From Microcaldota archaeon (GTDB lineage: Archaea > Micrarchaeota > Micrarchaeia > Anstonellales > Anstonellaceae), in NCBI GenBank assembly GCA_026396415.1, contig JAPLWX010000020.1, forward strand, positions 1-52,644: a stretch of 52,644 nucleotides of DNA, in the 5' to 3' direction. Position numbers and translations under genes: made by a program. The notes beneath the pieces were generated by a model that saw nothing but the letters and a program-made list of their open reading frames with translations, was not told the DNA's origin and did not search any database. Positions 12,126-52,269 of this stretch are shown in pieces. Within the stretch, counting starts at the first letter, position 1; every line of letters begins with the position of its first letter.

Positions 12126-13427
12126 ATGCTTTCTTTGAGACTTATCCGCGAAAACCCGTCGATATTGGAAGAGTCGCTTGCGCGCAGGAATGCCGACACT
12201 GCGCCTGCTGCGGAACTCATGGCGCTTGACAAGAAATGGAGGCTGGCAAAGAACGAGGCGGACAACCTCAAGGCGGAGAGGAATGCGGCTTCCATGAAAA
12301 TATCCGAAGCAAAGAAGACAGCCGCCAAGGGCGGCGCCCATTTGCCGCAGGCAAATAGGGAGGGCGAGGATGTTGCCAAGATAATTGCCAAGACAAAAAA
12401 GCTTGCGGCGGAGATTGGGGCGGCTGACGAGAAAGCGGATGCGCTTGAGGCGCAGATGAACGAAATACTTCTTACAGTGGCGAACATCCCGGACAAGACC
12501 GTGCCTTCAGGCAAGGGCAAGGAGGACAATGCGGAGGTGCGCAAGTGGGGCATGCCCAAGCTCACCAGCAAGGATGCCAAGCCCCACTACGAGGTGGCTG
12601 ACAAGCGCCTCATTGATTTTGAACGGGGCGTGAAGCTTGCAGGGCACAGGTTTGTAATGCTTCGCGGGCTTGCCGCGCGCCTCGAGCGCTCGCTCATAAA
12701 TTTCATGCTGGATTTGCAGGGAATGAACGGCTACACCGAGGTGCTGCCGCCATACATGGTGAACAGGAAGGCGATGATGGGGACCGGGCAGTTCCCGAAA
12801 TTCGCATCAGAGCAGTACAAGATAGAGGACGAGGACCTGTACATGATACCGACAGCAGAGGTGCCTGTCACCAACATGTTCTCGGGCGAGACTTTGAAGG
12901 AGGAGCAGCTTCCCATGTCGTTTTGCGCATATTCCGCGTGCTTCAGGCGCGAGGCAGGCTCGTACCAGAAGGACATCAAGGGCATAATGCGCCAGCACCA
13001 GTTCGACAAGGTGGAGCTGGTGAAGTTCACGAAGCCTGAAGAATCTTTCCACGAGCTTGAGAAGCTCACAAAGGACGCGGAGTCCGTGCTGCAAAAGCTT
13101 GGGCTGCCCTACAGGGTGGTGGAGCTTTGCACCGGCGACCTGGGGTTTGCCTCTGCAAAAACGTATGATATTGAGGCGTGGCTGCCCTCGCAGGACAGGT
13201 ACAGGGAGATTTCATCCTGCTCGAACTGCACCGACTTCCAGGCGCGGCGCGCGAACATCCGCTTCTGGCGCGCAGGAAAGCCGGAGTTCGTGCACACGCT
13301 GAATGGCAGCGGGCTTGCAGTGGGCAGGACTATGATTGCGATAATGGAAAACTACCAGGACGAGACGGGCTTTGAAGTGCCCAAAGCGCTGCGCGACTAC
13401 ATGAGATGCGATAGGGTGGAGTTCTAA
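12126..13427 (+). CDS. serS: seryl-tRNA synthetase
   Basis: [21 protein letters not shown]; class II motifs incl. [32 protein letters not shown] abuts the serA stop. Confidence 0.97.
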
Positions 13428-16676: not shown

Positions 16677-16753
16677 TTTGCCAGCCCTCTTTTCTCTATG
16701 GCAAAAGTGTCAACTATTTTTCGTGAACCGCACTGATGGAAGGAAAGGGGAAT

Positions 16754-16806
16754 GAAAAAGTTGCAGACAACTTTTTCAGCTATTGTAAATTATCAAATTT
16801 ACAATA
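16754..16806. repeat. two tandem intergenic hairpins
   Basis: gaaaaagttg-caga-caactttttc (10 bp) then tattgtaaatt-atca-aatttacaata (11 bp). Confidence 0.75.
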
Positions 16807-16825
16807 CAAAAATAAAAAAGATGAT

Positions 16826-17173: not shown

Positions 17174-17210
17174 TTTAAAAAGCCATTTTTTTCATTGAAT
17201 TTGAAATCAG

Positions 17211-17455
17211 CATCGAGCTTTGCTCGATGACTTGTCGAGCTCGGCTCGACAATTGTTGAACGCTTGCGCGTTCAACATCTGATGCGTTTTGCATCAGCAA
17301 AACGCACATCGCCGCGCTCTTTCAGCATCGGCAGAGCCGATGTCTGATGCATTTTGCTCCCGATTCGCCTGCAGGCGAATGGGCGCAGTTTTGCAAAGCA
17401 AAACTGCCGTTGCAAAATGCACATCAAATGCTGGAAAAGATGCTACATCTTTTCC
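17211..17455. repeat. intergenic hairpin cluster (array A), includes class I junction element at 17348-17421
   Basis: catcgagc-ttt-gctcgatg; ttgtcgagc-tcg-gctcgacaa; tgttgaacgc-ttgc-gcgttcaaca; tgcgttttgc-atca-gcaaaacgca; catcggc-aga-gccgatg; tgcattttgc[...]gcaaaatgca enclosing two hairpins; ggaaaagatg-cta-catcttttcc. Confidence 0.85.
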
Positions 17456-26264: not shown

Positions 26265-26336
26265 AGCCCCCGACGAGATTTGAACTCGTGACATCCAGTT
26301 TACGAAACTGGCGCTCTACCGCTGAGCTACAGGGGC
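26265..26336 (-). tRNA. tRNA-Thr(CGT)
   Basis: Cloverleaf by eye: acceptor GCCCCTG/CGGGGGC, D stem GCTC/GAGC, anticodon arm CCAGT-TTCGTAA-ACTGG, T arm ACGAG-TTCAAAT-CTCGT, discriminator T; no CCA encoded. Confidence 0.95.
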
Positions 26337-26342
26337 ATTGAC

Positions 26343-26535
26343 AACTGCGAAGCAGGTGGCAATAGGTTGTGCATCAGCACAACCGTGTGGCCAATTTCCC
26401 GGAGGAAATTGGGCAATTGTTGAGCGACGGCAGTCGTCCTTTGGACGACTGCGCCCATTCGCCAAAGGCGAATCGGGAGCTCAACATGTCGGTCAAAACC
26501 AGCAGGTTTTGAGCGCAGGCGTGCGCTTTGCGCGA
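26343..26535. repeat. intergenic hairpin cluster (array B), includes class I junction element at 26418-26486
   Basis: ggttgtgc-atca-gcacaacc; ccaatttcc-cgga-ggaaattgg; tgttgagc[...]gctcaaca enclosing gcagtcgtcc-ttt-ggacgactgc and attcgcc-aaa-ggcgaat; tcaaaacc-agca-ggttttga; gcgc-ttt-gcgc. Confidence 0.85.
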
Positions 26536-35355: not shown

Positions 35356-35940
35356 ATGTTCTCTGAAAAAGCCGTTTCGCGCGTGGTTGCCGCCATCGAA
35401 GCCTCCCCCGGCGGGATTGCTTCGCTGGAATTGCTGGAAAGCCTGCGCCTTTGCGGGCGCGATTCGCTCATCACCGCGCTTTCGCGCCTTGGCAAGGCGG
35501 GAAGGGTTGTGCGGCTCAAGCGCGGCGTTTACTCGGCCAGCCCGATGAGGGATGCGTTCGCCTGCGCGCAGGCAACCTATAATGGCTACCTCGCATTTTC
35601 ATCGGCGCTTTGCCTGCATGGCATGATAACGGAGATGCCATTCACAATCACTGTCGCAACCGCCTCGACATCGGAATCGAAAAGATTCGGGCAGTTTGAG
35701 TTCCGGGCGGTTGCGCTGGGGAAGCGCGCGGTGGGCTTTGAGCGGAAGGGCGCATACGTGGTTTCCACGAGGGCAAAGACGCTGTTTGATTGCCTGTACC
35801 TGCCGCGCTATTCCGTGGAGAAGGAAAAGCTGGAAGCGGCGTGGCGCGCGCTTTCCGCGAAGGAAAGGTCGGAATTCGCAGGCTATGCAAAGGAGCTTGC
35901 GCCAAACAGGGGGGATATCCATGATTTCGCCAAACATTGA
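35356..35940 (+). CDS. AbiEi-like type IV antitoxin
   Basis: N-terminal winged-helix-like segment, LITALSRLGKAGRVVRLKRGVYS, C-terminal antitoxin region; overlaps the AbiEii-like gene. Confidence 0.8.
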   Translation: MFSEKAVSRVVAAIEASPGGIASLELLESLRLCGRDSLITALSRLGKAGRVVRLKRGVYSASPMRDAFACAQATYNGYLAFSSALCLHGMITEMPFTITVATASTSESKRFGQFEFRAVALGKRAVGFERKGAYVVSTRAKTLFDCLYLPRYSVEKEKLEAAWRALSAKERSEFAGYAKELAPNRGDIHDFAKH

Positions 35941-36703
35941 CGCCTGCCGCGCGCTTGCAGTGCAGCACGGGCTGCCCCTGCAGTTCGTGGTGAAGGAATT
36001 CTACGTGATGGACGTGCTGGCGCAGCTTTCCTCGCGCGAGGAGTTCCGCAAGGATATGGTGTTCAAGGGCGGCACTGCGCTGAGCAAGGCGTATCTTGGC
36101 GGGGTGCAGAGGTTTTCAGAGGACCTTGACTTTGACATGGATGCCCCTTTTTCGGAAATACGCCGGCGCTGCGGGCGGATTGCGCCCTCGCTTGAGGGCT
36201 ATTCATCCGGGCCTGCAAGGAAGGTGGGCAAAACGCTGCAATTCTATTGCCGTTACAACAACCCTATCGGCGGCACTGACAATGTGAGGATTGACATTTC
36301 GCCGAAAAAAATCATTTCCAGCGCCGAGCCGGCGGTTGGCACCGCAACTTCGCTATTCTCGCAGCGTTCGGTATCCGGCTTTTTGGTTTATTCCCTTGAG
36401 GATTTGGCGGCAAGAAAACTTTGCGCGCTTGCCAGCCGGTGCGAGGGGAAGGACGTTTATGACTGCCACACGGCACTGCCGCTTTGCGGCAGGATGCGCC
36501 AGCCCATCGCGCGCATGCTGGAATCAGAGGGCATGGAAATGGCGCCTGATGAGTTCGTGGAGAATGCGATTGCTGCTGTGGAAAAGGCTGACGCGAAAAA
36601 GCTGCAAAGCCTGGCCAACCCGTTCATTCCCGCAGCGCTGCGCCCGCAGGACTGGCGGCTGGTGAAGGGAAACCTTGTTGCGATGCTATCAAGGCTGCTT
36701 TGA
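35921..36703 (+). CDS. AbiEii-like nucleotidyltransferase toxin
   Basis: MVFKGGTALSKAYLGGVQRFSEDLDFDM; DISPKKII; SLEDLAARKLCALASRCEGKDVYD. Confidence 0.85.
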   Translation: MISPNIDACRALAVQHGLPLQFVVKEFYVMDVLAQLSSREEFRKDMVFKGGTALSKAYLGGVQRFSEDLDFDMDAPFSEIRRRCGRIAPSLEGYSSGPARKVGKTLQFYCRYNNPIGGTDNVRIDISPKKIISSAEPAVGTATSLFSQRSVSGFLVYSLEDLAARKLCALASRCEGKDVYDCHTALPLCGRMRQPIARMLESEGMEMAPDEFVENAIAAVEKADAKKLQSLANPFIPAALRPQDWRLVKGNLVAMLSRLL

Positions 36704-36732: not shown

Positions 36733-36907
36733 CGCGGAGAGGAAAACGCCGAGCGTCAACTGCCGGAGCAGTCCCTCTTTTTGCGCAGCAAAAAGGGGCG
36801 CAATCGCCTGATGCGTCGGGCGATTGCCGTGGCGCGTTTTTGGCACGACAGACAATTGCAAAGCAATTGGATGCGAAGTCGTGCGCAGCACGACAACGGC
36901 GCCAAAA
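36733..36907. repeat. intergenic hairpin cluster (array C), includes a class I junction core at 36772-36830
   Basis: ctgc-cgga-gcag; ctttttgc-gca-gcaaaaag; gcaatcgcc...ggcgattgc; caattgc-aaa-gcaattg; gtcgtgc-gca-gcacgac; outer ttttggc/gccaaaa. Confidence 0.8.
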
Positions 36908-38882: not shown

Positions 38883-38922
38883 GGTTCTGCGCGGGCGCGA
38901 TTGCGTCGCCGGCGCGTGATTG

Positions 38923-38972
38923 CAGTGGAATTTCTAAATTCCACTGCTGAAAAATTTCATCGGAAATTTTTC
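38923..38972. repeat. two tandem hairpins (array F)
   Basis: cagtggaattt-ct-aaattccactg and gaaaaattt-catcgg-aaatttttc. Confidence 0.75.
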
Positions 38973-38991
38973 ATTGCCATTTGGTTGCCTC
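38973..38991 (-). repeat. 19-bp direct repeat copy 2
   Basis: attgccatttggttgcctc, 109 nt from copy 1. Confidence 0.9.
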
Positions 38992-41022: not shown

Positions 41023-44000
41023 CTACTTCTGCGAGAGCGGCAGCGGCTGGCTTGATGCCAGGGCATTGTCATCGTAAAGCGCGAGGATTTCCGCATCGGT
41101 CAGGGCGCGGCTGAACACGCGCACCTCGTCAATCCTGCCGGAGAAGGGCTCGCTGATATAGTCGGGCCCGTTGCCGATTGCAAAGTTGCTGAGGCTCGTG
41201 ATCGGGGTCCCGAGGCTGGCGCTGCTGCCGGCCTGCGCCCCGTTGATGTAAAGCCTTGCCACGCCGCCCTGCCTTGTTGCCGCGACATGGTACCATTCAT
41301 TGTCCTGGATGGAGCCCTCGGGAGATGTCGCATAGCCTTGTATGAGGAGGCCCAGGTAGTGATGGTCGACGAAGAATTCCGTGCCATTGGCATTGCGTAT
41401 GCTGTCATAGTTGCCCATTATGTAGTTGTTAGCGGATGCGCCAGTCGTATTTATCCATGCCGAGAGCGTGAAGTCCCCTGTTCCGCTGAGAAGCGCCGAG
41501 GGCAGCATTATCTTGTCCGTTGTCCTGCCGCCGGTGTTGAATTCGTATGCCCCCCCCACTTTCCCATCAGGCACCCAGGCTGCGCCGGTCTTGGTGCCTG
41601 CGCCCAGGAAGCGGGAATAATCCACAATCATGCCGCGCTCGTCCGAGCTCACGTTGACGTCGAAAGGCATGGAGAGCATGGTCTCGGGCAGGAGCGCCCT
41701 TATCCTCAGGCCGGCATTGTATGCCGCGGTGAGGTTCTGCGCCGCAGCGCCGGAATAGGTGAACGCGAGGTTCATGCTGCACTGCTGCTGGAACCAGCCA
41801 TTGTAGTGGCCCAGGACATCCGCCGGCGTGAGCGAGCGCTTGTAGAAGCGCACCTCGCCAAGCTCGCCTGCAAATCCGCTCGCCCCGGGGCTGCCGATGT
41901 AGAACGCCCCGCTGCTTTCCAGGCTTCCAAGCGAAAAGCCGGCTGGCTGCTGGTAGAGCACGCCGTCCAGGTATACCGAGTAGTTGCCGGTGCGGTCAAC
42001 CGAGAGCGCGACCTGGTGCCAATCGCAGTCGGCAAGCGAAACCGCGGGCAAAATCGAGGCGGCGCTCCCATCGCTGGCGCCCTTGCTGCTTGAGCTGTAC
42101 ATCCCCATGGTGAGCGTGTTGTCCGTGCCCACGGCCCAGTTGATGCCCTGCGGCTTGCCATCGACAGTGGACATCTGCGAGAACAGCACGCCCCCCGGCT
42201 GGATTGCATCTGCGCGCACCCAGGCAAGCATGGAGAAGTCGCTTGCCTGCGTGACGGATACATCGTCTATGTTGTATGGCACGCCGGATATGGGGTAGAA
42301 TCGGAGCTGCATCCTGGCGTTCGGAAGAGTCTTGAATACGTTCACCACCTGGCGCCACGCCGTGTCCGTGGCGGCAGGCTCTATTATTCCGCCATCCGCC
42401 CCCCCGGTGGCATTGGCGTACAGCCATTGCCCGCTTGCCGAGAGGTAGGCATTGTTGATGGTGTCGTAAAGCGCATAGCGCGCAAGCGGGGTGCCCGTGG
42501 TCCCGACGCGCGCCCAGAACGAAAGCACGTACTTCGCATCGCCCGCAAGCGGGCCCATGAGCGCCGAGTTGTATGCATATGAGCCCTCTGCGCCGCTCAC
42601 CGATGCGGATGATGCACCTGAATGGTATGTGCCGGCCGAGCGCGCGAAGCCGACTCCGCCCGCCTTGGCCCAGCCGCTGAACTGCATATCGCCGGTGACA
42701 TTCAGGCTTATGCAGTAGTAGTCGCTGCTGCCCGAAAGCAGAGCGCAGGAATATGGCGATTCGCAGCCGCCCGGGCGGGAGGCGCTGCATTTGGCGTAGG
42801 GCGCGTAGTGGTCGACGCACTGCCCATAGTCCGAGAGGATGGTGTGGTTGGCCCCGTAGCTTGAAACGCCTATGCTTTCCCTGTTCAGCGTGTCGCAGAA
42901 CCCTGCTGCACATTCCGAGTCACTGAGGCAGGCGGCGCCAATCGGGCTGAGCGCGGGCTTGGGCGGTGCGCACACCAGGCTGTTTGTGCCAAGCGAGTCC
43001 TGGCAGCTTCCGGAGCAGCACTCGACGTCCAGGGCGCAGCTTGCATTCTGGGGCACGCATGACTTGCACAATCCTGCGCTGCACAAGCCAGAGGCAGCGC
43101 CCTGCGCAGCGCAGCATTGGCTGTTGGATGCGCAGGAAGCCGAGCTGTTTATCGGTATGCAGGCGGAACAGGCGCCATCCGCGCAAAATGAGCAGCCGGA
43201 CGGGCATTGCGATGAAAGATTGCAGGACTGGCCGCATGACAGTGCGTCCACGCATACTTTCACGCTTGAGTTCTCCAGGCTGGGCCTGCACAGGCCCGAA
43301 AGGCAGTCTGCGCCGGAAGAGCAGTTGAGCATGGGGCTTGCAATCAGGCAGGTCCCTGCGGGGGAGGTTGAGCTGCTGTATTTGCAAGCCATGCCTGAGC
43401 AGCACTTCTGCGCGGGCGAGCAGGCGGCCCTGCTGCAGCTTGTCCCTATCGCCGGGAGTGTGAATGCCGAGGACTCGTTCGGGGCTGAGCATGCCCCGTA
43501 CCTGTCGCATGCGCGGACCTGCATTTTTATCTGCATGCCCTCGGTGCAGCCTTCTGGAAGAAGCTCGCAGCTGAAAGAAGTGGAGCTGTGCCAGAAGCCC
43601 GTTATGGGCGTGTTGGAGGCAAGCCACCTGTACTCGATCCTGACGGGGGTGTCAAAGTCCGGGTCAGGGGGCATGTTGGTGGCGACGCAGTTCTGCACGC
43701 ATGTTATTGTCCCGTTGGAAGCAGACAGGCTCAGCACTGGCACTTGGAATGGGACTGCGGGCGGGTGATTGGCCGCGCATATGCCTTCCTTGCAGGTGAG
43801 GTTGGAGCCGGAGCAGCAGTCAGCGGCAGAAGTGCATGTCCTTCCGCCTTCGCTTAGGCAGCCGACACACGCCCCAAAGTCGGAAGAGCCGGTTGCCAGG
43901 TTGCAGAAGCTGTTCCCGCAGCACTCCGAGTTGGAGGCGCAGGTGACTGCGCCGATCGGGAGGCAGGGGCTGCATGCGCCGCCTGTGCAATAAGGCGCCT

Positions 44001-47000
44001 GGGGGGCGCACTCCGTTGCGGACGCGCAGGCCTCCCCGGCAGCTTTCTTTGCAACGCACACTCCGCCGCTGCAGGTTGATGACGGGCAGCATGAAAGCCA
44101 GGGGGAGCCGGGGCATGTTTCGCCGCCGCTGGTGCACACGCCCGCGTTGCAGGCTGCAGTGCCGCAGCTTGAAGACGCCGTGGATGAGCTGCAAGGCTGC
44201 CCCATTGGCAGGCAGTATGCGCTTTCGCATGAAGTGCACGGATAGCAGGTATGGGAGACCTGGTTGCAGCCGGCCTCGCAGTAGGGTGCATCGCCGGCCA
44301 TGCAGTCTTCATCGATATTGCAGGACTTGAGCTCGCATGCCCCGATGGTGTAGTTCTTGGGGGCGGGAGGCGGCAGTATCGCGCAGCGGTCGGCGGTCAT
44401 TGGCGCGTAATCCGCAACCGTGCCGTAGAGCATGCCGCGCGCGTTTGCCGCGTTGTACGGGTACTGCGACGGGTCTGCAAGCGAATCCGAGCCGGCATAG
44501 TAAGTGGTGTTCCAGCCGGGCTTTGCGGACCTGTTGGAGCCGCAGATGGAGACCTCCTTGCCTATTGCCAGGTTGTACCAGCTGTTGCCCTCGTTCTGCC
44601 CGGGAATGGTGGAGTTGTAGAAGTTCTGCCCGTCTTCCTCCTTTGCATAGAAGCCGGCGGTGGCGCCAAACGTGTTCCAGTAAAACGTGTTGCGCGTTGA
44701 GTGCGACAGGCGCAGCAGGTCGCTCGTGTACGAGGAGGACAGGAATGTGTTGCCGTACATCATGTTGCCGGCCGAATTGTCCTCGAAGTAAGCCGATACG
44801 CCGCCTGCGGCGGACGTGAACGTGGAGCCTGCCACCGTAAGCGCTTCGCCTCCGCTCACCCAAAGCCCGTAGCCGCCGCCCGTATTGGTGCCTGATGAGT
44901 TCGAGACGGCGGCATGGGTGGTTGCAAGATAGATGCCTGCGCCGGTCGCGCCGGTGGATGATGATGAGGCTGCAGCACCGTATATGGATGCATATGAGGA
45001 CGCGCCTTCCACTGAAATGCCGTTTTTGCTTGATGATGATGCGGATACGTTTGAGATGGTGGTGCCTATTGCGCCATCGGCAACCGTTATGCCGTTCCCG
45101 TCCCCGGATGATGCCAAGCCGTTTTGCAGCAGCGTATCATCCGTGAATTGGGCAAGGTAAACGGCATCGCTTGCGGCTGTCACATTCATGCCGGATATGT
45201 TGGTGCCTGAAACGCCGTCCAGGTAAATGCCTGTGCCCCCGGATGCCCGCATGCCTTCAATCGCATTGCCGTCCGAGCCGCCCGATGCCTGCAGGCGCAT
45301 GGCAGTGCCGGTGCCCGCAACGATGGTAATGTTGGCGAAGCGGTTGGCAGGGGAGTTGGTGATGAAAAGGGCGGTGCCTGCGCTGGTGGATGCCGTGTCG
45401 CCCGTGAATGAATTGTTGGCGCTTCCGCCCATGAAAATCCCATAGCCGCCGCCTGTTGCGTAGTTGTTGCTGAAGATGTTCGAGCCCGTGCTTGTGATGT
45501 CCATGCCCGTTCCGTTGCCATTGGCAGTCGCCACGTTGTTGGAGATGTTGTTGCAGCCGTAATCAGGCGAGTTGATGGAGATTGCCTTGCCGGCCGCAAC
45601 GGTGATGGCGTTGCCTGAAAGAGAATTGTTCGCGCTTGATGAGAGGTAGATTCCGAAGTAGCCTGCATCCGCGCTTCCCCTTGTGATTGCATTGAATGAT
45701 ATGGAGTTGTTGCTGCTCTGGTCGAGGAATATGCTGTGCCCGGTTGAATTGGAAAGCACATTGCCGGATATTACCGAGGCCTGGCTGGCGGGCTCCAGGT
45801 GGATTCCGTGCCTGCCTGAAAACACCGTGTTGTTTGCGACCAGGGCGCCCGTGGAACTGGCGATGTCCACGCCGTCCATGGAGGCGTTCAGGGTGCCCCC
45901 TATGACCGAGGCGGAGTCCGACTGGTTGATGCAAACCGCATGGCTGGAGGCGGAGGTTGCGTTGGAGCTGATGAGTTGGCTGTTATGGGACGCGGAAAGG
46001 TAAATGCCATAGCCGTACTGCGAGTATGCAAAGTTGTTGGAAAGCGTGCTGTAGTTTGAGCCTATGAGCAGGATGGCGGCTGAATGGGTTGCAAGCGCGG
46101 CATTGCTGCTTGTTATATGGATGGTGCTGTTCTGGATGTTGCTGTTCCTGGATGTGTTGAAGTAGATGCCAAATGCAAAGTTGCTTATGTTGCAGTTCTT
46201 CACCGTAGTGTTGAATTGGGTGGAGTAGACGCCGTAGGTGCCGGTGATGTTCGCACCGAGCAATGCGCCGCCCTGGCAGTCGAATGTGCCGTTGCTTCCC
46301 CCGTTTATGTAAATTCCGTGCCCGCTGCCGCTTGTGTTGATGCTTATTGCGGTGAAGTTGTTCCTGTTCGAGCTGTTCGCCGCGTAAATCCCATAGCCCG
46401 TGGAGCCGTTCACAAGAATCGAGGAGAATGCGGAATCGCTCGTGCTGCTCAGCACGACGCCTGACGAGCTGCCGTTGGCGCCGGCGCTGGTGCCGCCACT
46501 GCCTTTCGCGCCGCCTGTGCCGCCGCGGATGCCGGCTATGTTGTTCGAGGAGAGGCTGTTGGAGCTGGAGGAGATGAGGTAGATGGCAGAGACGCTGCCT
46601 CCAAGGCCGCCATAACCTAAGTTGCAGCCGCCTGTGCCGCCCGCGCCTCCGGTGAGCGTGGAGATGGAGTTGGAGGTGAGATTGATGAAGCTGGATGAGG
46701 ATAAGTAGATGGCTGAAACGGCGCCGCCTGTGCCGCCTGTGCCGCCATTGCCGCCTGTGCCGCCAATGCCTGCAGTGATGTTTGAGATGATATTGGAGGT
46801 GAGGTTGCTGGAGTTGGAGGAGGAGAGGTAGATTGCGGCAGAAGTGCCGCCTGGACTTCCGGCAGCGCCGCTGGAACCGTAGATTCCGGATATGCTGTTG
46901 CCCGTGATGATGGATTTGTTGATGCTTGTCAATGCCAGCCCGGCCGAGATGCTGATTGAAGAGAGATAGATTGGCGCTGATCTGGTGCGGGTGATGTTGA

Positions 47001-50000
47001 CCGTTTGCGACGAGATGTTGAGGGAGGTGGCATTGTAGAAGAAGAGGACGGGCTGGCTATCCATTGTATTTGCCGAGGCAGGCACATAGTAGTCGCCTGA
47101 CGCCTGGGTGGAAGTGAATGTGTTGGAATAGGAGTTGCTGTCTATTGAGAAAGCGGTTGAGAAGCCCGCGGCGCCGGAATTGCCGCCTGCCCCGGGCCCG
47201 CCTCCCGAACCGCCCGAAAGGGTGGAGATAATATTCGAGAGGAACAGGTTTGAGGCGGAAGAGATTAGGTAGAAGGCGGCAGAAGTGCCGCCAGTGCCGC
47301 CAACGCCTCCGCCTCCGCCGCCGCCGCTTGTGCCGCCTGTGCCGGCAGTGAGGCTGGAGATGTTATTGGAAGAGAGGTTGTTGGAATTGGAGGATGAGAT
47401 GTAAAATGCGGAGGCGGTCCCGCCAGTGCCGCCGCCGCCCCATGTGCCGCCAGTGCCGCCTATGCCTGCGAAGAGGCCCGAGACGGCGTTGGAGGTGATG
47501 TTGTTCGAGCTTGATGATGAAAGGTAGATTGCGATGGAATTGCCGCCCGCGCCGCCAGTAGCAAAGCTGGTGCCGATATCGCCGCCGGCAGCCCCGGTGA
47601 TATTCGAGATGATGTTGCCGAAGAGGATGGAACTGCTTGCCGATGCCAGGTAGATGCCGTAGGCAGGATATCCTGCGCCGCCCGCCGTGCTGGTGCTTCC
47701 CGCTGTGAGGTTGAGGAGGGTGTTCGAAGATATGTTGTTGAGGGGAGACGCCGCGTAGATTCCATAGACGGCTGAATCCGAAGGGGCTGCATCGTCCCTG
47801 ATGGTGTTGTTGTAGAGGGTGGAGCGGTTCGCGCTTGAATTGAGGTAGATGCCGGTGGGAAACTTCTTGATGATGCAGTTTTTCACAGTTGTGTTGGACT
47901 GGTTGGAGTAGACGCCGGAAGTCCCCGAGGCGTTCGTACCCATAAGTGATATGCCTTGGCAGTCCACGCTTACGTTTGAGCCGCCGTCGATGTTGATTGC
48001 TGATGAGCGGTTGGAGGAGGCGGTGGTGTTGATGATTTGCGTGTTGTGGGAAGCAGCCGTGACGACGATGCCATAACTAGATGTACCTGAAACGAGGTTG
48101 CGTGCGATTGAATTGTTTATGATGGTGTTGGGGCTCAGTTGAATGCAAATGCCAATAAGTGAGTTTGATGTTCCTGTGAAGTTGGAGAGTATGATGGAGA
48201 TTGTGTTATAGATATAGATACCACGACTGCTGCCGGATGTCCCCGTTGAGTTGGTAATTGTGCTATTGGTGTTGCTGTCGCCGAGATAGATGCCTACTCC
48301 GGTTATTGCAATGGTATTGCTGTTTGTTATACTATCGTTGCCTCCACCAGTGATAAATATGCCCGCGCCATGCCCCCAAGACCATGCTTTCGTTGTTGAT
48401 GCATTTACATTGTCTATCGTCCCGTTCTTCGCCCCTCCGGCAAAGTAAATGCCAACGTCGAAGTTGGAAATGTTGCAGTTCTTCACCGTGGTGTTGGGCT
48501 GGTTCGAGTAGACGCCGTAGGTGCCGGTTGAGTTGTTGCCGGCGATTGAGAAGCCTGCGCAGTTGAGCGTGACGTTAGCTGCTGTCACATTGAAGCATGT
48601 GGAGCCGCTGATGCTTGCGTTCGTGGTCATGTTGTAGGCCATATTTGCGGATGAGAGGGCGCCGCACCGGAGGATTGTTGGCGCGCTTGCGTTTGTCAGG
48701 GGCGCATAGTCCGCGCAGCCTGCGAAGTTGCAGGAGAACTTGCCGCCTGAGGTGGAGTTGCCGTAGGGATAGCCGCTGCCGGATGAGCCGATGTAGAGGC
48801 CGGGGATTGAGGAGTTGGAAGTGCCATAGACCTGCACGCTGCCGTTGATGACGTTTGCCCAGATGTTGCCCTCATTTGGCGTGGTGCCTATCGCCCCCGG
48901 GCTTGCGGTCTGCGCGTATTCCGCCTTTATCCAGTCGGCGGAGCGGTTGGTGTTCGAGATGCGCGCCTCGTCAAGGGAGCCATTGTATTTACCCCAATAT
49001 GTTGTATCTGTTTCATAGCCAATTCTCACCGTATTCGTGCTAAAAGTCCATGCACCATTCGCCGAAGCATTTGCAACCTTAACACCATCTACGTAAAGCA
49101 TTGCCATGCCTCCATTCGGAGCCGCAATTAAGGTCACAAGATGCCAGTTGCCATCTACAACACTTCCACCTGACATCCAACTAACTATACTTGCTGTGGC
49201 GTTCTTTATTTGTACGGCTGGAGAGGCACCGGAAAGCACTATAGTAATGCCATTATACGCAGAAGCTCCTCCGGCACGGCAGAATAATGCACAGGAGGCG
49301 CCACCCGTGCCATTGATTGACCCCCCACTTGACTTCACCCATATTGACCATGTGGATGTTGTGCTATCATAGTTCGTAGAGTTAGGAATGTATATGTGGT
49401 CGCCTGCAGTTGAATTGAATAAAGCTCCTCCGTCTGCCATCCCTGTTATGGCTGTTGGTGTTGTGATTGTTCCATTGTTTCCATAAATTGTATCTATTGC
49501 GTTCAAAGTTGTCCCATTTCCGAGATGATAAACCGCCACAAAGTTGCTGTCCCATGTCCCAGTCTTGTTCTCCCCGCTTGCGGCGCCCGTGTTGCCAAGG
49601 TAGGCGTAGATGCGCGTGAGGGCGCTGCCCGCGTAGTTGCCCTGCACCCAGAAGGTGCTGTTGACAGTGGAGTTGCCGCAGCTTTCAACCTCATAGTTGA
49701 GGATGTTTTTGGAGCTGTCCGTGAAGCGCACGTTGGCGCAGGTCGTGGCGTTCCAGTAGGTGGAGTTGGTGGTGTTGAGGCTCACAAGTGCAGGGAAGTT
49801 CGTGAGACTGCTTGCCACCGTGGTGTTGATGTCGATTGGCAGCATATATGGCCATGGGGCAAGCTGCGCAGTGGCTGTGGAGCAGTTGTAGTGGTTGGAG
49901 CCGTTGGTGTCGTTCACGTACAGGCCGGTTGTGGCGGTGAAGTTGTTGAGGCAGAAGGTGTTGTTGTTTGAGATGCTTGCGATGTAAAGAAGATTGTTCG

Positions 50001-52269
50001 CCCCGCCAATGGTGTTGTTGCTTATGATTGAGTTGTTGCAGTTTGACATTTTCAGCGTGTTGGAATTTGCTCCGGTTGCGGTTATCGTGTTGCCTATTAT
50101 GTTGATGTTGCTGCCAGCCAGATTGATGCCCGATGTCACGCCTCCGATTATGGTGTTGTTTGCCACGCTTACATTCACCGGAGCACCTGTAAATGACATT
50201 CCATCTACTATTCCGATTAGCGTGTTGTTCATTATTGCTATATTGTTCCCATTGGCTAATCGGATTGCCGCGTATGATGCTCCGGTTGAATACATGTATG
50301 AGTTCGTGACCGACACGGTTGTGCCGGGATACACGAACATCCCATAGCCAGTTATCGCCGAGAGGTTGCAGTTCGTCACATTGACGTTGCTTACTGTCGT
50401 CATATATATTGCATTAGCATAGGGGTAAGTGTCGTTGCGCGTGATGGTTATGTTTGTGTCCTTTACCGTCACTTTGTCGGTGGATACTGCCTGCACTCCG
50501 TGCTGGAAATTGCTTATCACGCAGTTCATCACGGTGGTGTTTGCCTGTGTGGTGTATATGCCGTTTGTGCCGGTTGAGTTGTTCCCAGTTATCGACCAGC
50601 CTGCGCAGTTGAGCGTAACGTTTGCCGCCGTGACAGTAAAGCATGTCGAGCCGTTGATGCTTGCGTTTGCGGTCATGTTGTAGACCGTGTTTGCACTGGA
50701 GAGGTTGCCGCACTGGAGTGCGGCCGCTGTGCTTGCATTGGTGAGAGGCGCATAGTCCGCGCAGCCTGCGAAGTTGCAGGAGAACTTGCCGCCGCTGCTT
50801 GCCGTTGTGTTGCTGTAGGGAACGCCTGCGCCGGATGTGCCGATGTAGAGGCCTGGAATTGATGATGCTGTTGAGCCGTAGACTGAAATGCTGCCGTTCA
50901 GCACATTTGCCCAGATGTTGCCCTGGTTGCTGCCGTTGTAGGTGCAGTTGTAGTAGTTCGAGCCGTTCAGGTCTTGGACGTAAGTCGTCGGGCTTGTTCC
51001 TGAATTTGAGAAGTTGTTCAGGCAGAAGGTGTTGTTGGATGCGCTTGAGTCAAGATAGAGCAGGGTAGTGGCATTGAGGATTGTGTTGTTGATGAATCGT
51101 GTTCCAACGGTTCCGCCAACGTTCTTTATGAACCCGACAGCATATGTCATTCCATAGCCGTTGATTGTGCTGTTTGCCACAGTGGCGTTTGTCGTGTCCT
51201 GCAACAGCAATGACCCGTATGTGCTGCTTCTGCCAGTTGCAGTGCAGTTATTGATTATTACGCCAGTGCTAAGATATACATACAGTGCCATTGATGTCGT
51301 TGAAACGCCGATTGAGGATAGCACGGAATTGGTTATTGTGGTGTAGTTACTGGTTTGGAGGATGATGCCATATTGCCCGTTGCTTGTCTGCGTGACTTTT
51401 GAGGTCACATTATCCACTGTGCTATTGGTTACGTTATTGAGACTTATTCCCCGTGTGTATTTGCTTATGTTGCAGTTCTTTACCGTCAGGTTGACTATGT
51501 TGATAGTAGAGATGCCCAAATAGGGATTGGCATCGTTGCCGGCTATGTTCGCGCCCATGCAGTCCACGGTCACATTGTTTCCGCCATCAATAACGATGCC
51601 GTGCGCACTCGTGGTGGTTATCGTGTTTTGGTTGAGGCTGTTCCTGTGCGCGCTTGAAGTAATGTAGACTGCATAGCCTCCGGTGAGTGTTTCGGCGATT
51701 GTGTTGTTCTGGATGAGGCCGTCGGTTGAACCGCTGTAGCGTATGCCGTTGGAGAAGCCCGAAACGTTGCAGTTCTTCACCGTGGTGCCCGTTCCTGCGC
51801 TGTAAACACCCCACGTGCCGGCTGCGCTCACGCCTGTTATTGTCTTGCCCATGCAATCAATCACAACGCCGCTGCCTGAATTGACTGTGATGGCCGCGGC
51901 GGTGTTCACGGTTGAGATGGAATAGAGCGTGTTGTTCTGTATTATGGTGTTTGCCGAAGAGCCCGTGTTCCTGATGGCAGTGTAGCGCGCGGCATTGGTG
52001 ACGTTTATGGTGTTGCTTGATATGATGCCGTTTGACGCGCCGTTGAACTGGATGCCGTCCTCAAAGCCGGTTATTATGCAATTCTTCACGGTTGTGTTGG
52101 ACTGGCCGGAATAGACGCCATATGTGCTGGCGGCATTGTTGCCGGTTATGGAATGCCCGTTGCATTCAATTGTCACATTGTCCGCCTGCACGTTGAAGCA
52201 CGAGCCGTTGCTTGCCAGGTCAGAGGTCACATTGCACACGTAGTTTGGCGTGGCAAGATTGCCGCACAC
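41023..52269 (-). CDS. giant modular surface protein: parallel beta-helix repeats, DUF2341/LamG-like domains, Gly-rich helices, Cys-rich region
   Basis: 3748 codons open; repeated SGSTCFNVTAANVTLNCAGFSIAGNNSTGTYGVYSNQPNTTVKNCNISNF (NosD/PbH1-like), LamG-like WSIWVKSS..LYVDGVKV..GYETDT and ISAWINTT..LYINGAQAGSS. Confidence 0.9.
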   Translation of the reverse strand: MCGNLATPNYVCNVTSDLASNGSCFNVQADNVTIECNGHSITGNNAASTYGVYSGQSNTTVKNCIITGFEDGIQFNGASNGIISSNTINVTNAARYTAIRNTGSSANTIIQNNTLYSISTVNTAAAITVNSGSGVVIDCMGKTITGVSAAGTWGVYSAGTGTTVKNCNVSGFSNGIRYSGSTDGLIQNNTIAETLTGGYAVYITSSAHRNSLNQNTITTTSAHGIVIDGGNNVTVDCMGANIAGNDANPYLGISTINIVNLTVKNCNISKYTRGISLNNVTNSTVDNVTSKVTQTSNGQYGIILQTSNYTTITNSVLSSIGVSTTSMALYVYLSTGVIINNCTATGRSSTYGSLLLQDTTNATVANSTINGYGMTYAVGFIKNVGGTVGTRFINNTILNATTLLYLDSSASNNTFCLNNFSNSGTSPTTYVQDLNGSNYYNCTYNGSNQGNIWANVLNGSISVYGSTASSIPGLYIGTSGAGVPYSNTTASSGGKFSCNFAGCADYAPLTNASTAAALQCGNLSSANTVYNMTANASINGSTCFTVTAANVTLNCAGWSITGNNSTGTNGIYTTQANTTVMNCVISNFQHGVQAVSTDKVTVKDTNITITRNDTYPYANAIYMTTVSNVNVTNCNLSAITGYGMFVYPGTTVSVTNSYMYSTGASYAAIRLANGNNIAIMNNTLIGIVDGMSFTGAPVNVSVANNTIIGGVTSGINLAGSNINIIGNTITATGANSNTLKMSNCNNSIISNNTIGGANNLLYIASISNNNTFCLNNFTATTGLYVNDTNGSNHYNCSTATAQLAPWPYMLPIDINTTVASSLTNFPALVSLNTTNSTYWNATTCANVRFTDSSKNILNYEVESCGNSTVNSTFWVQGNYAGSALTRIYAYLGNTGAASGENKTGTWDSNFVAVYHLGNGTTLNAIDTIYGNNGTITTPTAITGMADGGALFNSTAGDHIYIPNSTNYDSTTSTWSIWVKSSGGSINGTGGASCALFCRAGGASAYNGITIVLSGASPAVQIKNATASIVSWMSGGSVVDGNWHLVTLIAAPNGGMAMLYVDGVKVANASANGAWTFSTNTVRIGYETDTTYWGKYNGSLDEARISNTNRSADWIKAEYAQTASPGAIGTTPNEGNIWANVINGSVQVYGTSNSSIPGLYIGSSGSGYPYGNSTSGGKFSCNFAGCADYAPLTNASAPTILRCGALSSANMAYNMTTNASISGSTCFNVTAANVTLNCAGFSIAGNNSTGTYGVYSNQPNTTVKNCNISNFDVGIYFAGGAKNGTIDNVNASTTKAWSWGHGAGIFITGGGNDSITNSNTIAITGVGIYLGDSNTNSTITNSTGTSGSSRGIYIYNTISIILSNFTGTSNSLIGICIQLSPNTIINNSIARNLVSGTSSYGIVVTAASHNTQIINTTASSNRSSAINIDGGSNVSVDCQGISLMGTNASGTSGVYSNQSNTTVKNCIIKKFPTGIYLNSSANRSTLYNNTIRDDAAPSDSAVYGIYAASPLNNISSNTLLNLTAGSTSTAGGAGYPAYGIYLASASSSILFGNIISNITGAAGGDIGTSFATGGAGGNSIAIYLSSSSSNNITSNAVSGLFAGIGGTGGTWGGGGTGGTASAFYISSSNSNNLSSNNISSLTAGTGGTSGGGGGGGVGGTGGTSAAFYLISSASNLFLSNIISTLSGGSGGGPGAGGNSGAAGFSTAFSIDSNSYSNTFTSTQASGDYYVPASANTMDSQPVLFFYNATSLNISSQTVNITRTRSAPIYLSSISISAGLALTSINKSIITGNSISGIYGSSGAAGSPGGTSAAIYLSSSNSSNLTSNIISNITAGIGGTGGNGGTGGTGGAVSAIYLSSSSFINLTSNSISTLTGGAGGTGGCNLGYGGLGGSVSAIYLISSSSNSLSSNNIAGIRGGTGGAKGSGGTSAGANGSSSGVVLSSTSDSAFSSILVNGSTGYGIYAANSSNRNNFTAISINTSGSGHGIYINGGSNGTFDCQGGALLGANITGTYGVYSTQFNTTVKNCNISNFAFGIYFNTSRNSNIQNSTIHITSSNAALATHSAAILLIGSNYSTLSNNFAYSQYGYGIYLSASHNSQLISSNATSASSHAVCINQSDSASVIGGTLNASMDGVDIASSTGALVANNTVFSGRHGIHLEPASQASVISGNVLSNSTGHSIFLDQSSNNSISFNAITRGSADAGYFGIYLSSSANNSLSGNAITVAAGKAISINSPDYGCNNISNNVATANGNGTGMDITSTGSNIFSNNYATGGGYGIFMGGSANNSFTGDTASTSAGTALFITNSPANRFANITIVAGTGTAMRLQASGGSDGNAIEGMRASGGTGIYLDGVSGTNISGMNVTAASDAVYLAQFTDDTLLQNGLASSGDGNGITVADGAIGTTISNVSASSSSKNGISVEGASSYASIYGAAASSSSTGATGAGIYLATTHAAVSNSSGTNTGGGYGLWVSGGEALTVAGSTFTSAAGGVSAYFEDNSAGNMMYGNTFLSSSYTSDLLRLSHSTRNTFYWNTFGATAGFYAKEEDGQNFYNSTIPGQNEGNSWYNLAIGKEVSICGSNRSAKPGWNTTYYAGSDSLADPSQYPYNAANARGMLYGTVADYAPMTADRCAILPPPAPKNYTIGACELKSCNIDEDCMAGDAPYCEAGCNQVSHTCYPCTSCESAYCLPMGQPCSSSTASSSCGTAACNAGVCTSGGETCPGSPWLSCCPSSTCSGGVCVAKKAAGEACASATECAPQAPYCTGGACSPCLPIGAVTCASNSECCGNSFCNLATGSSDFGACVGCLSEGGRTCTSAADCCSGSNLTCKEGICAANHPPAVPFQVPVLSLSASNGTITCVQNCVATNMPPDPDFDTPVRIEYRWLASNTPITGFWHSSTSFSCELLPEGCTEGMQIKMQVRACDRYGACSAPNESSAFTLPAIGTSCSRAACSPAQKCCSGMACKYSSSTSPAGTCLIASPMLNCSSGADCLSGLCRPSLENSSVKVCVDALSCGQSCNLSSQCPSGCSFCADGACSACIPINSSASCASNSQCCAAQGAASGLCSAGLCKSCVPQNASCALDVECCSGSCQDSLGTNSLVCAPPKPALSPIGAACLSDSECAAGFCDTLNRESIGVSSYGANHTILSDYGQCVDHYAPYAKCSASRPGGCESPYSCALLSGSSDYYCISLNVTGDMQFSGWAKAGGVGFARSAGTYHSGASSASVSGAEGSYAYNSALMGPLAGDAKYVLSFWARVGTTGTPLARYALYDTINNAYLSASGQWLYANATGGADGGIIEPAATDTAWRQVVNVFKTLPNARMQLRFYPISGVPYNIDDVSVTQASDFSMLAWVRADAIQPGGVLFSQMSTVDGKPQGINWAVGTDNTLTMGMYSSSSKGASDGSAASILPAVSLADCDWHQVALSVDRTGNYSVYLDGVLYQQPAGFSLGSLESSGAFYIGSPGASGFAGELGEVRFYKRSLTPADVLGHYNGWFQQQCSMNLAFTYSGAAAQNLTAAYNAGLRIRALLPETMLSMPFDVNVSSDERGMIVDYSRFLGAGTKTGAAWVPDGKVGGAYEFNTGGRTTDKIMLPSALLSGTGDFTLSAWINTTGASANNYIMGNYDSIRNANGTEFFVDHHYLGLLIQGYATSPEGSIQDNEWYHVAATRQGGVARLYINGAQAGSSASLGTPITSLSNFAIGNGPDYISEPFSGRIDEVRVFSRALTDAEILALYDDNALASSQPLPLSQK
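48701..48747 (-). repeat. 47-bp exact repeat inside the giant gene, copy 1
   Basis: ggcgcatagtccgcgcagcctgcgaagttgcaggagaacttgccgcc. Confidence 0.85.
50747..50793 (-). repeat. 47-bp exact repeat inside the giant gene, copy 2
   Basis: Identical to 48701-48747. Confidence 0.85.

Follow-up and report, generated by a model that had tools for sequence, protein, structure and literature searches.

The junction elements in the window, i.e., the 52,644-nt stretch of DNA analysed here (contig C40 of G000, an archaeal metagenome-assembled genome of 1.74 Mb and 92% completeness), are best read as members of a family of non-coding, mobile double hairpins (referred to as class I). We put the probability of this reading at about 80%, with the recognition of shape in trans being inferred. 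Evidence for insertion comes from a comparison with G008, a genome of the same genus that is about 80% identical to G000 (as with the other comparison genomes, both are draft assemblies). At all 12 loci where a class I or dimer-bearing insertion of G000 could be matched, the dimer was absent from G008. These loci comprise the intergenes of copies A and B, the start of an epimerase gene, a topoisomerase tail, C50, C7 (beside a tRNA-Ser gene), a tRNA intron, four MITE sites and Pus10. Whether they represent gains or losses was judged by presence/absence, intact target genes, patchiness and this one close relative. Taken with the antisense orientation of most in-frame copies inside genes, lineage-specific insertion at 12/12 loci argues for a mobile palindromic DNA element rather than an RNA family.

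Copies A (17348–17421, + strand), B (26418–26486, – strand) and C (about 36772–36830, + strand) were recovered at the positions given in the sequence-only reading, and their strand relative to neighbouring features differs from one copy to the next. The window contains three occurrences of the pattern GGGCGCA-N6-30-TGCCGT, where 0.11 would be expected (three being reached in 0/100 shuffles), and single-strand DNA folding yielded z-scores of –6.8, –9.3 and –3.7 for A, B and C, respectively. Two covariance models were built, both home-made, so that their E-values are rough. R1, trained on seven copies with copy C left out, scored copies A and B at 85 and 83 bits and still recovered copy C (28 bits), though it was absent from the training set; R2, trained on diverse members including all three, scored them at 81, 75 and 40 bits. 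R2 moreover revealed a fourth, short dimer that had been overlooked (12317–12361, – strand; 24 bits, E-value of 1e-4), in which CCC, a bulged T and ATTTGCC..GGCAAATGGG are followed by a second hairpin, with a bulged hairpin at 12340.

Copy A is supported as a whole three-way junction by R1, R2 and its DNA fold. Its outer stem P1 is an inverted repeat of the 5′ arm TGCATTTTGC (17348–17357) and a 3′ arm at 17412–17421. Within it, the minimum free energy structure and the bulged-hairpin scan place P2 at 17359–17383 (CCC, a bulged G at 17362, ATTCGCC-loop-GGCGAAT, GGG), and the same structure places P3 at 17384–17409 (CGCAGTTTTGC-AAA-GCAAAACTGC, a bulged C, then G), the bulge in the 3′ arm mirroring that of P2. 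The P1 of copy A appears to be a class II hairpin of earlier origin (GATGCATTTTGC..GCAAAATGCACATC) with copy A sitting in its apex, and a plain form of this hairpin type recurs at 17279–17310 and in G012. Class II denotes a second type of three-way junction, TCAG-hairpin-TCTGA-TG-hairpin-CACATC (window 17323–17347, L062 and L137:12068–12142). Upstream of copy A lies a cluster of related hairpins, recognised as inverted repeats (17206–17352, + strand; CATCGAGC.., TTGTCGAGC.., TGTTGAACGC.. and TGATGCGTTTTGC..), which also holds the class II TCAG-hairpin-TCTGA at about 17323–17347 and whose hairpins have many copies in G012, G005, G001 and G004. Other short interspersed repeats, at 38919–38979 and 16745–16812, likewise have many copies in genomes of the same genus.

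Copy B, supported by R1, R2 and folding, has TGTTGAGC/GCTCAACA as its P1 and the same P2 stem as copy A, together with a different inner P3 stem (GTCGTCC/GGACGAC). A hairpin pair at 26357–26416 (– strand) separates it from an adjoining tRNA-Thr(CGT) gene found by Rfam search (26265–26336, – strand). At this locus G008 has the tRNA-Thr gene and the neighbouring hairpins (92% identical for the pair), and copy B is missing. Copy C, detected by R1 and R2, consists of a P2 with CCC, a bulged T and CTTTTTGC..GCAAAAAGGGG, and a P3 with GCAATCGCC..GGGCGATTGC; the outer stem earlier called weak is indeed not a good P1. In the comparison of copy C with G008, the upstream gene differed and no copy was found near the downstream gene. 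In the window, copy C adjoins an AbiEii-type nucleotidyltransferase gene (35696–36703; type IV toxin-antitoxin family), and further along, at 41023–52269 (– strand), there is an open reading frame of 3748 aa, a length that is unusual in so small a genome.

The common three-way-junction fold proposed for A, B and C stands; the segments TCCC(G/T) and GGGC, taken at first for linkers, are mostly paired. Specifically, CCC pairs with GGG and leaves one base bulged (G in 21, T in 10 and A in 1 of 32 aligned copies), so that P2 is made of CCC, one bulged base, a stem of 7–9 bp and GGG. P3 begins right after P2 with CGC(A) and carries its bulge on the 3′ side near the base, as the mirror image of that in P2. 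Read on the opposite strand, P3 thus has the P2 design, which is also why the models match the same places on both strands. The junction linkers that are left after this re-pairing are a T, then nothing or a C, and then about 2 nt. The CGTY that follows P3 in the classic class I copies is partly paired in P3 and is missing from many relatives. One and the same stem may even serve in both roles: copy C and L096 have it as P2 (CCC, bulged T, CTTTTTGC..GGG), L061 as P3 (CCCCTTTTTGC..bulged T, GGG). The pairing of CCC with GGG around a bulge and the mirrored bulge in P3 indicate that two bulged hairpins of one design, in inverted orientation, make up the unit as a dimer. On the best reading, the mobile unit is P2 plus P3, each monomer having a foot of 3–4 bp, a one-base bulge on its outer side, a stem of 7–10 bp and a small loop.

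The size and frequency of these units were assessed over all aligned copies and in structural and bulged-hairpin scans of 440 kb of G000. P2 plus P3 spans 48–55 nt across the 32 copies. In the 440 kb, hairpins with a one-base bulge and exactly 3 or 4 foot pairs numbered 44 and 24, respectively, vs. 2.3 each in shuffles; adjacent pairs of oppositely bulged hairpins numbered 23 vs. 0, 0 and 0; and adjacent hairpins enclosed by a stem were found at about 20 places vs. 0 in Markov shuffles. Star-like arrangements, each with three to five bulged hairpins, were also observed (L132:19300–19660, L142:19267–19380 and L143:11270–11370), and their feet (GCGC, GGACC/GGTCC) have more than one possible pairing partner.

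A covariance-model search recovered copies at about 25 places in G000, and covariation exceeded that of shuffled controls; neither of the outcomes named as refuting the sequence-only reading thus occurred. In an alignment of 32 matches, fitted to the model and hence inflated in its pairing, 25 of the 29 base pairs showed double-sided changes, 94.7% of cells were paired (69% when shuffled) and the covariation score was 0.56 (0.13 in shuffles), with each of these measures being reached in 0/500 shuffles. Sliding the structure along the alignment lowered pairing to 33–49% (49% for a shift of one column). Even the seemingly constant CCC/GGG foot varies with compensation, being CGC/GCG in L052 and L056. 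The compensated differences noted earlier between copies A and B do keep the pairing, although they compare separate insertions and not orthologues of one locus. Selection on a folded RNA or single-stranded DNA had been suggested from them; selection on, or recognition of, a folded single strand fits both the covariation and the conserved bulges, but a functional RNA is not the best reading. Strong covariation among the copies in one genome can thus mark a mobile element and not a functional RNA, which calls for caution.

When R2 was run on 247 genomes of the class, 41 proved to have the fold; they are spread over many families, with up to at least 20 scored matches per genome. Distant matches that were spot-checked had the same fold and the same bulges, and presence was patchy even within a genus, with several species of the same genus having no R2 matches. 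As had been said of the three copies, the element belongs to no recognised family: Rfam gave no match to it above threshold, and searches at gathering and relaxed thresholds returned only tRNA and then chance-level matches. A tRNA-like structure as the source of the covariance-model matches was discarded, the top matches being unexplained by tRNA scanning. Two class I patterns had no exact counterpart in viral contigs, and a near-exact query with copy A found no match in plasmids.

Filled and empty sites could be compared most cleanly at two loci. In the gene identified by Pfam as Pus10, the hairpin GTGC^CGCA is intact in G008, and G000 adds exactly 54 nt (18 codons) at the start of its loop. 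In an IS200-like MITE on C41, the right-end hairpin CC-TTTA-GG is intact in G008, and in G000 its loop reads TT-54 nt-TA; the same G000 MITE carries a second dimer in its left-end hairpin, and further MITE copies in G000 (L061 and L071) keep the plain TTTA loop. As the host hairpins are intact in the relative, P1 at these two sites is the older stem and P2 plus P3 the part that moved. Neither site shows a target-site duplication. Direct repeats do occur near the C50 insertion (22 bp) and the topoisomerase tail, and some insertions exceed the unit, carrying P1 and neighbouring hairpins along (e.g., 102 nt in the epimerase gene). Given these larger insertions and the differing lengths of the direct repeats, more than one process may be at work.

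Nesting was seen in L059, where one class I element lies within the P3 apex of another, and in copy A with its class II hairpin. A tRNA intron (G000:C25:81327, L058:1440–1620) measures 127 nt with a class I-type dimer inside vs. 35 nt for its G008 counterpart (L244). The outer arms of this enlarged intron, CTTCTCTTTCTTTTCC and GAAGAGAAAGAAAAGG, are parallel rather than antiparallel complements. A 67-nt stretch containing a dimer is 100% identical in G008 and G000, with unrelated flanks. Not all copies occupy a hairpin apex: a good P1 is lacking in L051, in copy C and in the G008 copy with the identical 67-nt stretch. The reciprocal comparison of G008 copies with G000 revealed no orthologous flank within the stretches compared. 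In G008, tRNA-Thr and a tRNA-Ser gene are adjacent (L200, C53), and in G000 a tRNA-Thr and a tRNA-Ser gene each border a class I copy on separate contigs (window 26265–26486 and L044), which suggests that class I copies lie at a rearrangement breakpoint between the two tRNA loci.

About ten copies reside within the reading frames of conserved genes. The hosts of in-frame class I copies encode S2, L24, S11, L7Ae, L32e (in G001), topoisomerase I, Pus10, a V-ATPase subunit and an epimerase, and the two net inserts that were measured (+54 nt in Pus10 and +102 nt in the epimerase) are multiples of 3. Most of these copies are antisense to the gene and encode TAVLxxKTAPIGAxGSNRE in low-complexity tails, which fits tolerated insertions and not an RNA acting in one orientation. 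A class-V aminotransferase gene (L062) holds an in-frame class II element, where ~9 bp of flanking sequence is repeated.

These data can be accommodated in a mechanism in which the unit would be recognised by its shape (i.e., bulges, feet and junction) while the DNA is single-stranded, as happens in extruded cruciforms or during replication at the fork. It would then be pasted by a structure-specific enzyme, supplied in trans, into a second hairpin at its exposed, single-stranded tip. Recognition by shape would explain why the stems drift with compensation, whereas little more than the fold and some positions of the feet and bulges stays constant. That a structure-guided machinery of these archaea adds bulged double hairpins to hairpins elsewhere, at their single-stranded tips, so that these grow into nested junctions, is a tentative proposal to which we give somewhat less than even odds. 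If true, it would constitute a mobile-DNA mechanism without a known enzyme, escaping sequence searches because the fold alone is conserved.

Some dimers travel in larger carriers. One of these, E2, is an IS200-like MITE of about 200 bp with two hairpins and covarying terminal inverted repeats (CACANNCCCACGCC/GGCGTGGGNNTGTG), found at L052, L053, L054, L061, L066 and L069–L072 (G000 contigs C23, C33, C41, C18, C19 and C38), L206 (G112) and L209 (G126). It is present in several families of the class and at two sites is inserted at GTGA directly 5′ of a start codon. The other, E3, is a composite MITE with inverted repeats TGAATGACCTCGG/CCGAGGTCATTCA, each containing bulged dimers (L056:876–1130 and L057 in G000 contigs C7 and C18; L067; L136:8920–9240). 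Both carriers are IS200-like, with (T/G)TCAC ends and the hairpin CCCACGCC-TTTA-GGCGTGGG, features that the dimer itself lacks. Carrier and passenger are separate entities, since at one site the two species share the MITE but just one of them has the dimers.

A rival reading is that transposases of the IS200/IS605 type (Y1, HUH) move the dimers, as proposed for RAYTs and REPs, in which case the dimers would be archaeal REPs. Enzymes of this class typically act on bulged hairpins and on single-stranded targets, and G000 has two open Y1_Tnp genes, one of which ends in a hairpin like those at the ends of the dimer-carrying MITEs. However, no recognisable class I units flank these two genes, and the dimers have no GTAG tag. 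Moreover, across the 247 genomes Y1_Tnp occurred in 11 of 41 with the element and in 78 of 206 without it (27% vs. 38%, P=0.21), and was not found in a genome rated 100% complete that has 17 copies. A Y1 transposase as an obligatory partner is thus not supported, and we consider movement by such enzymes unlikely. TnpB was rejected as a partner as well, none being found in G000, G012, G059 and G066.

Perfect stems, nesting, the lack of an identified enzyme and the varying direct repeats beside some copies would also fit a scenario without any transposition, in which template switching during replication (quasipalindrome repair) generates the compensatory changes by mutation and the nested tips by snap-back copying. 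Such switching does not account for the fixed size of the unit or for a bulge position and foot sequence conserved across families of the class, and an identical 67-nt copy at unrelated sites of two species requires copying between loci, making this scenario quite improbable. Similarly, a spread of variants among hairpin-rich repeats through gene conversion or homologous recombination, with dimers as passive passengers of IS200-like MITEs, would suit the apparent tRNA-Thr/tRNA-Ser breakpoint and the dimers riding in MITE ends in several families; the Pus10, topoisomerase-tail and tRNA-intron insertions nevertheless lie outside MITEs, with flanking homology no longer than the hairpin itself, and we regard this explanation as very doubtful. 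Finally, a conserved functional RNA (a terminator, a processing or stability element, or a small RNA) whose fold is under selection is most improbable, since strong covariation, stable folding and the siting of several copies between genes and beside tRNA genes are outweighed by 0/12 orthologous loci being conserved, by mostly antisense copies in coding genes, by the varying strands of A, B and C, and by the lack of an Rfam match above threshold.

A mobile double-hairpin family, as preferred here, would let a single process account for several features of these genomes: the abundance of hairpins between genes, the nesting of junctions, the tRNA introns of increased length and the peculiar in-frame inserts of ribosomal proteins. 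The exact empty and filled sites, in turn, make target choice and unit boundaries directly readable. Integron attC sites offer a likeness in that they are recognised by fold and bulged bases rather than by sequence; the insertion of a 54-nt unit into a hairpin tip is, in contrast, not cassette recombination.

Our literature search yielded precedents in REP, RPE and DHE, and no archaeal report of the class I unit in the open-access literature searched. The double-hairpin elements (DHE) in the mitochondrial DNA of Allomyces (Paquin, Laforest and Lang 2000, via PMC2800124) are short mobile double hairpins for which no target duplication is reported; repetitive hairpin-forming elements of sponge mitochondrial DNA are related to them. 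Like DHE, class I elements are short, non-coding, multi-copy and patchy in close relatives, occur in spacers as well as genes and are tolerated in transcripts. They too have two adjacent hairpins as their unit, show mobility by presence/absence and lack target duplication in the two clean cases. Unlike DHE, they reside in archaeal chromosomes, are inverted dimers with paired mirror bulges, nest within themselves, sit exactly in hairpin tips (two cases) and lie in frame in essential protein genes. In-frame palindromic repeats are known from the Rickettsia palindromic elements (RPE), as discussed in PMC3733652; those are sequence families of one genus, whereas class I is defined by structure, found class-wide and located mostly in disordered tails. 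The short, palindromic and mobile GC clusters of yeast mitochondria, which merge and shuffle, have short flanking direct repeats (AG/ACT; PMC4478555), unlike the two clean class I cases.

Bacterial REP dimers within larger palindromes have been described in A. variabilis, T. roseum and H. neapolitanus (Di Nocera 2013, PMC3733652), and CGTC-tagged REPs apparently lack a dedicated transposase (PMC3733652). Class I elements share with REPs the form of bulged or imperfect short palindromes, the inverted dimers, the multiple copies and the presence both between and within genes. They differ in being archaeal, in a far wider freedom of sequence with covariation and in exact apex insertion vs. empty orthologues; since they also have no GTAG or CGTC tag in the canonical place and no association with Y1/RAYT, they are not classed as REPs. 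The Allomyces DHE are the best match in kind, and the bacterial REP dimers are the closest chromosomal relatives. With class I, a kind of mobile double hairpin described in organelle DNA and, more loosely, in bacterial REP dimers appears as a structure-defined family across an archaeal class. As far as searched, what sets class I apart from the known double hairpins is the mirror-bulged inverted dimer, the insertion into hairpin tips and the class-wide archaeal spread with compensated drift.
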